From a virus: a stretch of DNA of 21,912 nt. Every line of letters starts with the position of its first letter. Position 1 is the first letter of the stretch. Shown here piece by piece: positions 11,179 to 21,912 of the stretch. The DNA lies in IMG/VR virus record IMGVR_UViG_3300037585_003867, positions 1 through 21,912 of that record; one strand, written 5' to 3'. The notes below the pieces were generated by a model that was given only the letters and a program-made list of their open reading frames with translations, searched no databases and was not told the origin of the DNA. The translations under genes and the position numbers were made by a program.

Positions 11179-13299
11179 TCATCCTAAAACATTATATTTC
11201 CTAAAAAACTTCTTTTCCGAAAAACTAACTCTAGGTTTTGGTTTTGCCTTTTGCGCTGCAAGAAGGGCTAATCCAGAACTTATAGTGAGGTCGAACTTTG
11301 TTCTATTGTCTATTTTAAACCCTATCCAATCTTCTAAAGTTTTGTTAAAATACATCGCACCGTTCTCTCCCGTGTCTCTATTTATACCTACATGAGAATG
11401 TACGTATGCTTCTATGGAGTGAGCATGAGCCTGGATGACGTCCTGAGAATTAGAAGGTATACCTTTTGTTTTAACCTTCATTGTAGAGTTAGGTGCTTTT
11501 AAGTGCTCTGGTCTATTCATTAGGTAGCCATCGTAACCTCTTGTCTCAAAGTATCTTGCTATACCGTACTTATTGTTCTCGATTAAGATAGGGTATCCGT
11601 AAAATACAGCAGACATAAGAACATCTTCATAAAATATTTTAGCTAAGGGTGGGCGTGAAGCATACTCCAACACAAACGTGTTAGATGGGTGCTCCATATT
11701 AAACTTATTGTATAAATGTAATGCCCCTTTAGACCCTCTACCATCTACGGTAGCATCAAGATCATATGAGTCAACACCTCCACAACCTATGTGACTGTTT
11801 GGTGGTAACCGCTTACCCCTCTCTATCCTTTTTTGATTACGGAGCTCTTCTGGGGGTAACCAGGATATTCTAAATCTACCTGCTGAATCTGGAGAAAAAA
11901 CCACCTCGGTATCCTTCTCCCCATTTTTCCATAAAAAATTACCGCTTACTACAGGGTTAGGAAAAAGCTCATCGTTATATTCTATTTGCTCATATATCTT
12001 GCCTATATTAAACAAGCTGCCTTCTATACTATCTCTAAAAGCTTCGTCTTCTGTAAAAGGGAACTGCCTCACTACCTCGTTAAGTTCAGAAGCATCTTCT
12101 TTAAGTGATTCTCTTTCATTCTTGAGATATGTCTTTGCCCCAATCTTAACTGGATCACCATCTATACCCTCTTGTTCTTTTTTTGGGTCTTGTATAACAG
12201 GATGTCCATGCATATCAAAAAACCCTTCTAAAGATTCATATGCGGGAATAAACAGCCTATATAGTCCCGTTCTAGTCCTCCCATTCGCGTTCCTCTCCAG
12301 AGGATTCGAATCCCTCCATAGGTCTTTGTACTGGCTTCCGCCTTTGTCCATTGGATTTACCGTGCTTCCGACCAGAGCCTTCCCCACGATTTTTCTTCCG
12401 ACGATCAAACACGTCCGTTGAATCCTCCAAGCGTCTCTTATGTCTGTAGGTCTTTCCCATTTTCCTGCTTCGTCTAAATACAATATGTGTAGCTTCTCAC
12501 CATCGTATGCGTTATTAGTTGTGTTTTTCCAATTTATAACCGTATTAAGAGCTTCCCCTATCTGTGAGGTTTTGTTCTTTTTGGTTATTCGTTTCGACGG
12601 TTCCCTAAAAGCTAACTCCATACGCGGATTAGTTGTACCATCTTGTATAGGTTTAAAGAAGAAAGGGTAGTTTCTAAACATGTAAACCACCTTCTTCATA
12701 AATATGTTTTCTTGTGCGTCCTTCCCCGTCTTCGACTGTATCCCCATAAGCTTATCTTTAACCTGTGTAGCTTCATCAACAAGTACAGCAGAACATATAT
12801 TGGTGTACCCAGAACGACGACACTTAGTATAAAGCTGGCCAATACAACGAGGATCAATCTCGCAAGCAGCCATGTGTAAAAATATCTCACGTTGAAAATT
12901 TAGAAAATAAGGGTAACCAATATCCAGCTTCGTCCACTGAAGCATCATGTAATGCCTCCCCGTAATATATATAGGTTCACCGTTGTTATAAAACCAAAAG
13001 CCCTCACGCCTGCGCCGAAACTCTTCCTCGACATATGGACGAAACCTCTCTCGAAACTCCCTCGGCATTTCCGCCCACTCATCCATAGAACGAATACGAG
13101 ACAATTCCTGCGGCATAGGTGTCCTCTCCCACATTTGCAAAGACTTTGGTTTTTTATATCCGAAAATTTCTTTCTTAGGCGGCCTTTTCGGAAGACAAAT
13201 GAGTAAATCACCGAGCTCGATAATTTCACCTTCCGTACCGCTGGGACAAACCTTGATAGCAGGGTCATCATACTCCTCCAGATCTAATAAGACAGACAT
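11179..13299 (-). CDS. terL: Terminase large subunit
   Basis: 706-residue DNA-packaging motor: an N-terminal ATPase and a C-terminal RNase H-like nuclease that cuts concatemers. Visible motifs: a deviant Walker A loop TKCRRSGYTN (158-167), in which the usual Gly-Lys-Ser/Thr reads Gly-Tyr-Thr; Walker B HILYLDEA (271-278) with the catalytic Asp-Glu; a coupling-motif candidate ALVGSTVN (309-316). The nuclease centre is marked by GCGGVDSYD (Asp510), a second acidic site in LIENNKYG (Glu574) and Asp670 in FDLTISSG. All parts are in frame, so the gene looks intact. A substituted Walker A is common in terminases of Bacteroidota phages. It comes right after a small zinc protein whose stop overlaps its start (base 13299). 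Confidence 0.92.
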   Translation of the reverse strand: MSVLLDLEEYDDPAIKVCPSGTEGEIIELGDLLICLPKRPPKKEIFGYKKPKSLQMWERTPMPQELSRIRSMDEWAEMPREFRERFRPYVEEEFRRRREGFWFYNNGEPIYITGRHYMMLQWTKLDIGYPYFLNFQREIFLHMAACEIDPRCIGQLYTKCRRSGYTNICSAVLVDEATQVKDKLMGIQSKTGKDAQENIFMKKVVYMFRNYPFFFKPIQDGTTNPRMELAFREPSKRITKKNKTSQIGEALNTVINWKNTTNNAYDGEKLHILYLDEAGKWERPTDIRDAWRIQRTCLIVGRKIVGKALVGSTVNPMDKGGSQYKDLWRDSNPLERNANGRTRTGLYRLFIPAYESLEGFFDMHGHPVIQDPKKEQEGIDGDPVKIGAKTYLKNERESLKEDASELNEVVRQFPFTEDEAFRDSIEGSLFNIGKIYEQIEYNDELFPNPVVSGNFLWKNGEKDTEVVFSPDSAGRFRISWLPPEELRNQKRIERGKRLPPNSHIGCGGVDSYDLDATVDGRGSKGALHLYNKFNMEHPSNTFVLEYASRPPLAKIFYEDVLMSAVFYGYPILIENNKYGIARYFETRGYDGYLMNRPEHLKAPNSTMKVKTKGIPSNSQDVIQAHAHSIEAYVHSHVGINRDTGENGAMYFNKTLEDWIGFKIDNRTKFDLTISSGLALLAAQKAKPKPRVSFSEKKFFRKYNVLG

Positions 13300-20315: not shown

Positions 20316-20361
20316 TAGTAGAGTAAATATTTAAGTAAGCGGTCCTAATTAACCGCCTCTC

Positions 20362-20445
20362 AATGCTTTAGAGTGGAAAATATGCCTAACCATCGTAAAA
20401 ATGATCCCGCGGTTTTGAAAAATTTATGAGTAATGTTTAGAGTGG
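20362..20445 (+). repeat. Direct repeat AATG(C)TTTAGAGTGG, two copies
   Basis: AATGCTTTAGAGTGG at 20362-20376 and AATGTTTAGAGTGG at 20432-20445, differing by one base insertion, start points 70 bases apart. Each copy is followed 7-12 bases later by an ATG with a very short frame (15 and 7 codons). They could be operator half-sites, iterons or leader elements. Confidence 0.5.
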
Positions 20446-20663
20446 GGATTATATACATGTACCAACGTTTACTTACGTAAACGGAAACGGAATCTCAAAC
20501 CCCCCTCCCCTAAACAAAGTTTAGAATTTGCCTTAACGTTTAACCCTATGGGTTACAGCTTGTTACGTAGTTGTACTTCAAGACATAGTTCACCTCGATG
20601 TTCTACATCGTTGGTAATCAGTGGAGGACAATCCCTCACTTAGAGTATAACTCTAACTCTATT

Positions 20664-20680
20664 AACCCCTATAAGGGGTT
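20664..20680 (+). repeat. Hairpin AACCCCT-ATA-AGGGGTT
   Basis: Perfect 7-base stem with a 3-base loop, followed on the plus strand by TTTAC. The same stem word occurs after the 84-residue gene (21220-21237). It could act as a weak terminator or as part of the structured leader. Confidence 0.5.
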
Positions 20681-20718
20681 TTACTGTTAACGTTAGTTAA
20701 GATTGTATTAGTATTCTT

Positions 20719-20739
20719 TTACTAAGTTTTACTTAGTAA
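20719..20739 (+). repeat. Perfect 9-base-pair hairpin
   Basis: TTACTAAGT, loop TTT, ACTTAGTAA. The longest uninterrupted short stem of the non-coding stretch. No poly-T follows, so a terminator role is doubtful. Confidence 0.55.
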
Positions 20740-20854
20740 TTCAGTTGTTGTTGACAATTCAATTATCAATACAAACCCATCTTGCTAAAGCAAGAGTACA
20801 AGTCTTGAGAGTCAACGCATTGAGAACCTTTAGGTTCTGTATGTTGAGAAGGGT

Positions 20855-20912
20855 AGAGTTAGAGGAATAAGAAGAAGGAAGTCTATGACTTCTTCTTATT
20901 ACTCTTAACTCT
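20855..20912 (+). repeat. Long imperfect hairpin before the 84-residue gene
   Basis: Arms of 26-29 bases around a TAT loop: the left arm begins AGAGTTAGAGGAATAAGAAG and the right arm GACTTCTTCTTATTACTCTT. The arms pair apart from a small mismatch and a 3-base bulge on the left and one base on the right. It lies about 50 bases before the start codon and could control expression of the plus-strand genes. Confidence 0.65.
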
Positions 20913-20929
20913 TAGAGGCTTCGAAGTTG

Positions 20930-20947
20930 CAAATTTCAAACCATTTA
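20930..20947 (+). repeat. Leader repeat, copy 1 (shortened)
   Basis: CAAATTTCAAACCATTTA, 13 bases before the ATG at 20961. It shares its right part (AAACCATTTA) with the copies at 21294 and 21889. Probably the 5' untranslated leader and ribosome-binding region of this gene family. Confidence 0.6.
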
Positions 20948-20960
20948 AATCTCATCTACG

Positions 20961-21215
20961 ATGAACGATTCAATTCTCAAAGACTGCCGTAAGGCAGTAA
21001 ACCAAGCTAAGTACTCAGCTACCGCTGAAAGAAAGGCTAAAGCCTTAAACCTCTTAGCAAAGCTAACCGAGGCAGTTACTAACCTCGAAGAGGTTAAGCC
21101 AAAGCCAAAGGCTAAGCCGAAGGCTAAGGCAAAGACTTCGAAGAAGTCTAAAGCTAAGTCTAAAGACTTAACGAAGCTAACTAAAGCCGAGTTGGTAGCT
21201 ATGCTAAAAGCATAG
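20961..21215 (+). CDS. Small basic protein with histone-H1-like tail, paralogue 1
   Basis: 84 residues. Residues 1-43 are a helical domain (ILKDCRKAVNQAKYSATAER, then KAKALNLLAKLTEAVTNLEEV) about 70% identical to the start of the next gene. Residues 45-69 are almost only Lys, Ala, Pro and Ser (KPKPKAKPKAKAKTSKKSKA), as in histone-H1 and HU-type tails, and the end TKLTKAELVAMLKA resembles a SAP/HeH-type small helical DNA-binding end. Likely a nucleic-acid-binding protein that compacts DNA or binds RNA. The coding sequence holds many small hairpins (for example 20983-20998, 21080-21096, 21133-21149, 21155-21170). Codon use differs from the minus-strand genes (more CGT, CTC, ACC). Function not proven. 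Confidence 0.7.
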   Translation: MNDSILKDCRKAVNQAKYSATAERKAKALNLLAKLTEAVTNLEEVKPKPKAKPKAKAKTSKKSKAKSKDLTKLTKAELVAMLKA

Positions 21216-21237
21216 TTACTAACCCCTTTAGGGGTTA
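21199..21237 (+). terminator. Two hairpins at the end of the 84-residue gene
   Basis: CTATGCT-AAA-AGCATAG spans the stop codon (21199-21215), and TAACCCC-TTTA-GGGGTTA follows 4 bases later (21220-21237). The second could end transcription, but it is followed by AAAAAAG rather than a T run on the plus strand, so a processing or RNA-stability role is also possible. Confidence 0.4.
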
Positions 21238-21256
21238 AAAAAGATTTGATAAAAGT

Positions 21257-21288
21257 TTTGGATTTTCAAGACTTCTGTCATATCTTTG
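21257..21288 (+). promoter_or_regulatory. Bacteroidota-type promoter of the 141-residue gene
   Basis: TTTG (21257-21260), a 20-base spacer and TATCTTTGC (box 21281-21288): a full match to the -33 TTTG and -7 TAnnTTTG pattern. Expected start near 21294, exactly where the 24-base leader repeat begins, 35 bases before the ATG. Confidence 0.75.
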
Positions 21289-21293
21289 CCCCG

Positions 21294-21317
21294 ACATCAA
21301 ATTTTATAAACCATTTA
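21294..21317 (+). repeat. Leader repeat, copy 2
   Basis: 24 bases, ACATCAAATTTT followed by ATAAACCATTTA, differing at one position from the copy at 21889-21912. It begins at the predicted transcription start and ends 11 bases before the ATG at 21329. Confidence 0.75.
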
Positions 21318-21328
21318 ATTCATCGAAG

Positions 21329-21754
21329 ATGAAAGACATTAATTTCAAAGATTGCCGTAAGGCAATAAACCAAGCCAAGTTCAGAGCTACCGCTGCTCGT
21401 AAGGCACAAGCGTTGAAGTTGCTAAAGCAACTAACCGAAGCGGTTTCTAACCTCGAAGAGGTTGAGGCTAAGCCAACCAAGTCGAATCGTCTGGCACGTA
21501 AGGCATCTGCAGGTCGACCACGTAACCGCAACCAAAAGTTGGAACGGCAACAAGCCAGAGATAGCGTAAGTACTACGTACTTAAAGCCTGAGGTTGTTGA
21601 AAGTTACCAAGCCCCTCGCAAGGAGGTGGTTACACTCTCCGAAGGAGAAACAGCAGAAATGGCAATGGCAAAGCTTCGCACCAAGCGTATGCAAGACGCT
21701 GAGGCACTTGCGATGGCTGAGTTCGAGGCTACTCTGGAGGTTGCCCCGTTCTAA
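21329..21754 (+). CDS. Small basic protein, paralogue 2, with longer C-terminus
   Basis: 141 residues. The first 45 (MKDINFKDCRKAINQAKFRA, then TAARKAQALKLLKQLTEAVS, then NLEEVEAKP) are the same domain as in the 84-residue protein. The middle is Arg/Lys-rich (SNRLARKASAGRPRNRNQKL), with a GRPR segment like an AT-hook core. The rest is helical and more acidic (EMAMAKLRTKRMQDAEALAM, then AEFEATLEV). So the family combines one conserved helical head with variable tails. A nucleic-acid-binding role is likely, possibly with protein contacts through the C-terminus. The coding sequence again holds hairpins, including ATTGCC-GTAA-GGCAAT (21351-21366) and AGTTGC-TAAA-GCAACT (21417-21432). It has its own promoter. 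Confidence 0.7.
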   Translation: MKDINFKDCRKAINQAKFRATAARKAQALKLLKQLTEAVSNLEEVEAKPTKSNRLARKASAGRPRNRNQKLERQQARDSVSTTYLKPEVVESYQAPRKEVVTLSEGETAEMAMAKLRTKRMQDAEALAMAEFEATLEVAPF

Positions 21755-21768
21755 GCACTCAACCCACC

Positions 21769-21815
21769 AGCATAGGCACACAGGGTGCACACAAGGTTCG
21801 ATTCCTTGCTATGCT
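21769..21815 (+). ncRNA. tRNA-like mini-structure without anticodon arm
   Basis: A 7-base acceptor-like stem AGCATAG (21769-21775) with CTATGCT (21809-21815) encloses a small hairpin GCAC-ACAGG-GTGC (21776-21788) and a perfect T-arm: stem CAAGG, loop TTCGATT, stem CCTTG (21792-21808). The T-arm matches the tRNA consensus GGTTCGATTCC and the GG in the small loop sits where a D-loop GG would. At 47 bases no anticodon arm fits. It could be a truncated tRNA, a tRNA mimic, or a tRNA 3' end kept as an attachment site. No CCA follows (CTAA). Confidence 0.5.
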
Positions 21816-21836
21816 CTAATCCTCTTAGAAGGTTTA

Positions 21837-21874
21837 GTATAATATATCTCTTCATTTATGAAGATATATTATAC
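21837..21874 (+). repeat. Long AT-rich hairpin
   Basis: 17-base-pair stem: right arm ATGAAGATATATTATAC (21858-21874), left arm GTATAATATATCTCTTCAT (21837-21855) with a 2-base bulge, loop TT. It lies between the tRNA-like element and the third leader repeat. It could be a terminator or an unwinding site; no T run follows. Confidence 0.6.
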
Positions 21875-21888
21875 AAACCATCTTAGTA

Positions 21889-21912
21889 ACATCAAAATTT
21901 ATAAACCATTTA
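21889..21912 (+). repeat. Leader repeat, copy 3, at window end
   Basis: ACATCAAAATTT followed by ATAAACCATTTA, 23 of 24 bases equal to the copy at 21294. By analogy, a start codon of a third family member is expected about 11-13 bases past the window edge. Confidence 0.7.

Follow-up and report, generated by a model that had tools for sequence, protein, structure and literature searches.

Short perfect hairpins fill the leader and first genes of an early operon in viruses related to flavobacterial phages

Why should the beginning of a viral early operon, leader and genes alike, be written as one short perfect hairpin after another, and is it as DNA or as RNA that these hairpins fold? The question is raised by the right end of a 21.9 kb virus record (IMGVR_UViG_3300037585_003867; the whole stretch of 21,912 nucleotides is called the window here), where a preliminary description had claimed a hairpin-saturated locus at 20339-21770 that runs through non-coding DNA and two genes. 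The window encodes a terminase (11179-13299, minus strand) that shares 42-48% identity with its counterparts in Flavobacterium elemo phages and in a Manatee Spring podovirus, and the TerL relatives in INPHARED are mostly Flavobacterium elemo and Cellulophaga phages; judged from these sequences, the viruses form a family akin to the phages that infect marine Flavobacteria. INPHARED held no close DNA-level phage record for the window, no prophage copy was found in bacterial genomes, no comparable array was seen in the 50 kb read of each of elemoA and MW202828, and searches of the open-access literature yielded no description of such an array. Contig scans recovered about 25 distinct related viral contigs with the same locus and genes, most of them also with the array, and the homologous place was a hairpin peak in all of the first nine loci compared. 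Late and early genes point in opposite directions in a 65.7 kb relative (G002), and the array lies at this divergence, at the start of the early genes. The GC-skew minimum of G002 (2494), which is confounded by gene direction, adjoins its array, and that of G007 falls at the contig end.

Hairpins were counted by script as non-overlapping perfect stems of at least 5 bp with loops of 3-5 bases. The results showed 30 such stem-loops between 20466 and 21877, and 20339-21770 held 28 against 4.8 expected from dinucleotide shuffles (z 11.8; 0 of 300 shuffles) or, with stems of at least 6, 21 against 1.4 (z 16.6). The tile overlapping the locus, with 27 hairpins against 5.8 expected, was the sole one of 15 equal tiles above 10, the remaining tiles to its left holding 2-10 each, near background, so that the claimed saturation is real and stronger than had been described. 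The excess was present in 20339-20960 (11 against 2.4) and, under synonymous-codon shuffling, in both genes (20961-21215, 8 against 1.8, 0 of 1000 shuffles; 21329-21754, 6 against 1.6, P 0.004); the dinucleotide and codon shuffles that the preliminary description had proposed as its check thus show an excess in the locus and in each gene. None of the 12 other genes of the window had a significant excess under synonymous-codon shuffling. The gene copies in nearly all relatives likewise exceeded the codon-shuffle expectation, the exceptions being those of the distant L134/L117 and of L158. The eleven intragenic hairpins listed beforehand are all present as perfect stems at exactly those coordinates, and only the limits of the array had to be moved: 20339-20465 contains no hairpin with a stem of at least 5 and a loop of 3-5, the GCGGT/ACCGC pair at 20339 has an 8-base loop and is not kept in neighbours, the first short-loop hairpin lies at 20466, and the end falls past 21770, at 21834-21877.

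The hairpins are alike in geometry. Among 100 distinct hairpins from eight loci, 98 had stems of 5-7 and 55 had a 3-base loop, the commonest length; the closing pair was 5'-C...G-3' in 59, against 19% in shuffles, so the C seen before and the G seen after the loop were correctly noted. GAA was the commonest loop (11 of the 100), most loops being of other sequence. Several ordinary sources were rejected. Chance or composition is ruled out by the dinucleotide and codon shuffles, and a by-product of Lys/Ala-rich codons by the codon shuffles together with the hairpins in an unrelated gene (MERLPK; see below). A repeated mobile hairpin element was discarded on the ground that the stems differ in sequence, the only repeats being the duplication of genes 1 and 2 and short flanks, and an array of intrinsic terminators was discarded after reading by eye, a short T run following the hairpin at 20664-20680 and nearly no others. 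Rfam gave 0 matches at gathering score in the window.

The array follows a conserved box on the plus strand (20426-20455; ATGAGTAATGTTTAGAGT-GGGGATTATATA, consensus GAGAAATRT..GGGGATWATATA), of which GGGGATWAT (20444) and the upstream half GAGAAAT stand 5' of the array in all 22 aligned loci and occur as a single copy in each of the two long relatives, G002 and G007. The box loosely resembles the Bacteroidetes -33/-7 type and is a putative promoter. The leader (20466-20960) holds eleven hairpins (20466-20483, 20510-20524, 20541-20555, 20596-20610, 20640-20656, 20664-20680, 20687-20700, 20719-20739, 20780-20795, 20823-20838 and 20878-20892), and one more, at 20952-20964, spans the start codon of gene 1. 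Gene 1 (20961-21215, plus strand, 84 aa) contains eight (20983-20998, 21015-21028, 21033-21046, 21054-21066, 21080-21096, 21133-21149, 21155-21170 and 21199-21215), the last of which encloses its stop codon. It is followed by an intergenic hairpin, TAACCCC-TTTA-GGGGTTA (21220-21237), whose loop is inverted (TAAA) in the close relative L004, and by TTCATC-GAA-GATGAA (21319-21333), which includes the start codon of gene 2 (21329-21754, plus strand, 141 aa), itself with six hairpins (21351-21366, 21417-21432, 21433-21445, 21449-21463, 21567-21583 and 21636-21648). Past gene 2 lie a tRNA-like element (21769-21815, plus strand), a hairpin from the script count (TCTAA-TCCTC-TTAGA, 21815-21829) and, as the end of the array, an A+T-rich bulged hairpin (21834-21877; inverted repeat I3, 94%; tip TCTTCA-TTTA-TGAAGA at 21849-21864), in which L004 and L005 show a paired change of TATAATAT/ATATTATA to TATTATAT/ATATAATA. 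A long bulged hairpin just 5' of gene 1 (20854-20914, plus strand; inverted repeat I2, arms 20861-20877/20889-20905, 94%; tip 20878-20892) has a counterpart in L116/L117 that is alike in position and form and other in sequence. Two long A+T-rich hairpins with small bulges in this way bracket the genes, one before gene 1 and one after gene 2, and L116/L117 carry A+T-rich bulged hairpins of different sequence at both corresponding places; the two in the window are possible RNase III-type processing sites.

Genes 1 and 2 are tandem paralogues over the first ~48 codons of gene 2, joined by a direct repeat of 157 nt (76% identical), and encode small, Lys-rich, very basic proteins without a Pfam or PHROG family match. 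The gene 1 product has a two-helix head and a Lys/Ala-rich tail (helices 3-18, 22-40 and 75-83 in a low-confidence AF2 model), and no solved structural relative was found for gene 2. Protein structure was set aside as a clue to function, the models being low-confidence helices with loose tails.

What the hairpins follow is distance from the box. Averaged over 16 relatives, observed/expected was 1.1 at -250..0 and 6.9 at 0..+250, peaked 0.5-1 kb past the box (10.8-fold at +500..+750) and returned toward background by +1500..+2000, whatever genes were present; in several relatives the first hairpin lies 22-24 nt past the box. In L146, L148 and L133 a further gene, third in order and unrelated (MERLPK...), also has 4-5 hairpins against ~0.9, and the hairpins therefore follow position and not protein.

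The structure itself proved to be under selection. When the beginnings of 16 gene copies are aligned, 97% of the cells are paired, 6 of the 19 pairs show paired changes, and the covariation score was reached by 0 of 500 shuffles; in the leader, two-sided compensatory changes occur in 16 of 59 pairs (seven relatives). Where KLLKQL and KLLTEL exchange Gln for Glu, silent Leu-codon bases change to match (CTG..CAG, CTC..GAG), and in the MERLPK gene ATAGTC-GTA-GACTAT becomes ACAGTC-GTA-GACTGT, both changes being synonymous (TAT to TAC, CTA to CTG). Between the window and L004, differences amount to 4.1% in stems, 16.3% in loops and 9.7% at other sites (stems against other sites, p 0.0007; against loops, 7e-5), and between L009 and L011 to 0 of 178 in stems against 31 of 419 (p 2e-5). 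Stems are also rebuilt on the spot in another register (L004 4712), and a slot can be kept among distant relatives, as in AGTTGC-TAAA-GCAACT of gene 2 in the window and AGCTCC-TAAA-GGAGCT of gene 1 in L116. The excess over synonymous codons, the paired changes and the slow stems together mean that the first ~1.4 kb past the box is kept by nucleotide-level selection as ~30 short perfect Watson-Crick fold-backs of diverse sequence, in leader and genes alike, which bears out the earlier suggestion of selection on structure within codons. It is rare for coding sequence to be obliged to fold all along its length irrespective of the protein encoded.

Whether these fold-backs act as DNA or as RNA was approached through wobble pairing. 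Over 17 relatives, perfect hairpins with stems of at least 6 numbered 209 against 11.5 expected, hairpins with one G-U 23 against 18.4, and A-C hairpins 36 against 31.2, so that one G-U did no better than A-C and worse than some true mismatches; the G-U share was 2.0% and the A-C share 3.6%. A like scan of MS2 RNA gave 31 G-U hairpins against 20.6, with A-C also in excess, which shows that the test can detect wobble without demonstrating strand specificity. Purines were not favoured in leader loops, where A numbered 80 and T 96, nor did these loops show a strand bias, and from one relative to another a loop may be inverted while its arms stay intact (AAA/TTT, TTTA/TAAA, ATA/TAT). The lack of wobble use, the lack of strand bias in leader loops and the loop inversions together point to a DNA-level constraint or to template switching, a process able to generate and mend perfect stems in a single event (PMC8794818). 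The comparison of these sequences favours DNA hairpins over RNA, and the DNA reading is somewhat ahead because wobble is not used, yet not far ahead, as the array sets in at a promoter-like box. The preliminary description had proposed a folded RNA or single-stranded DNA; as a class this stands, and the wobble test leans to DNA within it without settling the matter.

In phage N4, short C-G-closed DNA hairpins with 3-base loops extrude in vivo under gyrase supercoiling (PMC4496689). The array may be a set of such N4-type DNA mini-hairpins placed where early and late genes diverge, and they may contribute to a replication start, a reading that we consider quite possible if still short of probable. 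Put forward more tentatively is the claim that it represents a new functional DNA element, namely a kilobase-long, sequence-independent hairpin array superimposed on codons past a single early promoter and serving genome opening or replication. Under either DNA reading, the stretch would be opened by negative supercoiling, by an R-loop from the box or by a replication start, and either opened strand would fold into mini-hairpins with a 5-7 bp stem, a 3-4 base loop and a C-G closing pair. Their likeliest use would be in starting or organising replication and in keeping the opened early region apart, with the structured single strand used to load primase or helicase and to shed SSB or RNA, and template switching at the palindromes would probably help the arms to stay perfect. 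From the pattern as a whole we infer the promoter role of the box, the opening of the stretch, its folding as DNA and its use in replication or strand separation. If the hairpins do fold as DNA, they would serve a double-stranded DNA phage genome as structural material in bulk, not as isolated signals, and would offer a natural system in which to study how DNA extrudes, how replication starts and how palindromes are maintained.

The strongest rival is that the leader and the first two or three genes form a densely folded early mRNA, whose folding would protect it from nucleases, R-loops or RNA-targeting defence and whose end would be made by cutting at the tRNA-like or ribozyme element; we regard this as possible, leaning to the unlikely side. 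The short distance from the box to the first hairpin, the fading of the excess after the first genes and the pairing changes on both sides of stems all agree with it, and even under RNA selection, template switching by itself could exclude G-U from the stems (PMC8794818). Against it stand the absence of a G-U excess, the start and stop codons inside stems, the leader loops, which are not purine-rich, and the common loops of the array, which are A/T-rich and not UUCG or GNRA, types that do occur in several hammerheads of these operons. RNA folding was slightly better on the plus strand (mean z -1.79 against -1.41 on the minus strand after shuffling, paired p 0.001, over windows that are interrelated), which speaks for the mRNA; as a strand test folding energy was put aside, giving a slight plus-strand preference only. 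If it is RNA that folds, this would be an extreme instance of a structured early mRNA, and its avoidance of wobble pairs would call for a separate explanation; the ~25 related contigs make the DNA/RNA question testable.

True RNA elements in these operons, and the end of the array near one of them, also count in favour of an early mRNA. The tRNA-like element of the window has an acceptor (AGCATAG/CTATGCT), a small D-like arm (GCAC-ACAGG-GTGC) and a T arm (CAAGG-TTCGATT-CCTTG) and lacks an anticodon arm; ARAGORN called no tRNA there, and Rfam mascRNA-menRNA scored 22.9 bits, below its gathering score of 42.5. It could be an RNase P processing signal. Similar elements, usually without an anticodon arm, follow gene 2 or the next small gene in several relatives (L005 5430-5480, L009 5704-5770), and the early region of the 65.7 kb relative holds a true tRNA-Tyr gene (GTA; L005 8020-8103). 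Sister clades have canonical hammerhead cores between the same early genes, at places like that of the tRNA-like element in the window clade: L116 1816-1896 and L117 near 1860-1920 and 1246-1295 (all minus strand), L133 3709, L134 3237, L151 2860, L154 2860, L155 2932 and L158 1620. Where scanned, they fell below Rfam thresholds (RAGATH-1-hammerhead in L116, 35.8 bits, and Hammerhead_1 in L117, 21.6 bits, both under gathering score), and in L117 all three stems and the GUC cleavage site are readable. Hammerheads in sister clades and a tRNA-like element in the window clade thus suggest that the means by which the early transcript is cut between genes may differ from clade to clade.

It is unlikely, and already disfavoured, that the locus is a mutational hot spot in which template switching keeps making and repairing palindromes that have hardly any function or none. 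Loops inverted between intact arms, perfect arms without wobble and compensated changes requiring two transversions (TCTTGC/GCAAGA to TCTAGC/GCTAGA) are what such a process would leave, but it does not account for slots kept across distant relatives, for stems that change less than loops and other sites, or for a preferred closing pair. Less likely still is a binding array for the encoded Lys-rich proteins, which would recognise the hairpins in autoregulation or DNA condensation; an array for the encoded basic proteins had been proposed earlier. Both proteins are very basic, their genes lie inside the array, and array and gene family mostly co-occur, but the unrelated MERLPK gene is equally filled, the gene family persists in the distant L134/L117 and L158 although its members there contain few hairpins or none, the stems share no sequence, and distance from the box decides where hairpins stand. 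Packaged RNA, a further earlier suggestion, found no support.

Among known systems, genome-scale ordered RNA structure and structured RNA genomes such as MS2 have many coding-sequence hairpins kept by selection. The array resembles them in this and in its compensatory changes, but it occupies no more than ~1.4 kb past one box of a double-stranded DNA phage and, unlike MS2 under a like test, does not use G-U as a pair. The N4 virion RNA polymerase promoters (PMC4496689) are also short DNA fold-backs, closed by a C-G pair around a 3-base loop, in a podovirus early region, a geometry (5-7 bp stem) shared by many array hairpins, not all, and the GAA loop is of the G-N-A type that N4 requires; N4 hairpins, however, are few and each is a promoter with fixed bases, whereas the ~30 of the array have many sequences, many are intragenic, and most lack a G-N-A loop. 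The two giant virion proteins examined from G002 matched only structural or unknown families, with no RNA polymerase match. Hairpins maintained by template switching (PMC8794818) share perfect stems and compensated double changes, and the loop inversions of the array fit them, but that work concerns a mutation mechanism on known RNA genes, whereas the array occupies a whole operon start with stems more conserved than their surroundings. The RAGATH-1 hammerhead (Rfam RF03152) is represented in relatives by the cores between the same early genes; the window has none, and the array hairpins are not ribozymes. We found no known class to which the array belongs, the testable families each failing in a defining feature, with the folded early mRNA as a live rival.

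Among relatives the leader part of the array is variable and the gene part steadier, L005, L009, L143 and others having few short leader hairpins. A GC-richer tract with alternating purine-pyrimidine runs replaces the leader hairpins in L005 (4330-4600), L009 (4170-4420), L010 (4720-4830) and L024 (10970-11160), and a TTTTACC-TTC-GGTAAAA motif is conserved in several relatives with a hairpin-poor leader. In the window, a 24 nt direct repeat, ACATCAAAWTTTATAAACCATTTA, is present at 21294-21317 and 21889-21912, upstream of gene starts; the record ends in the second copy, and a further early gene therefore probably comes next.
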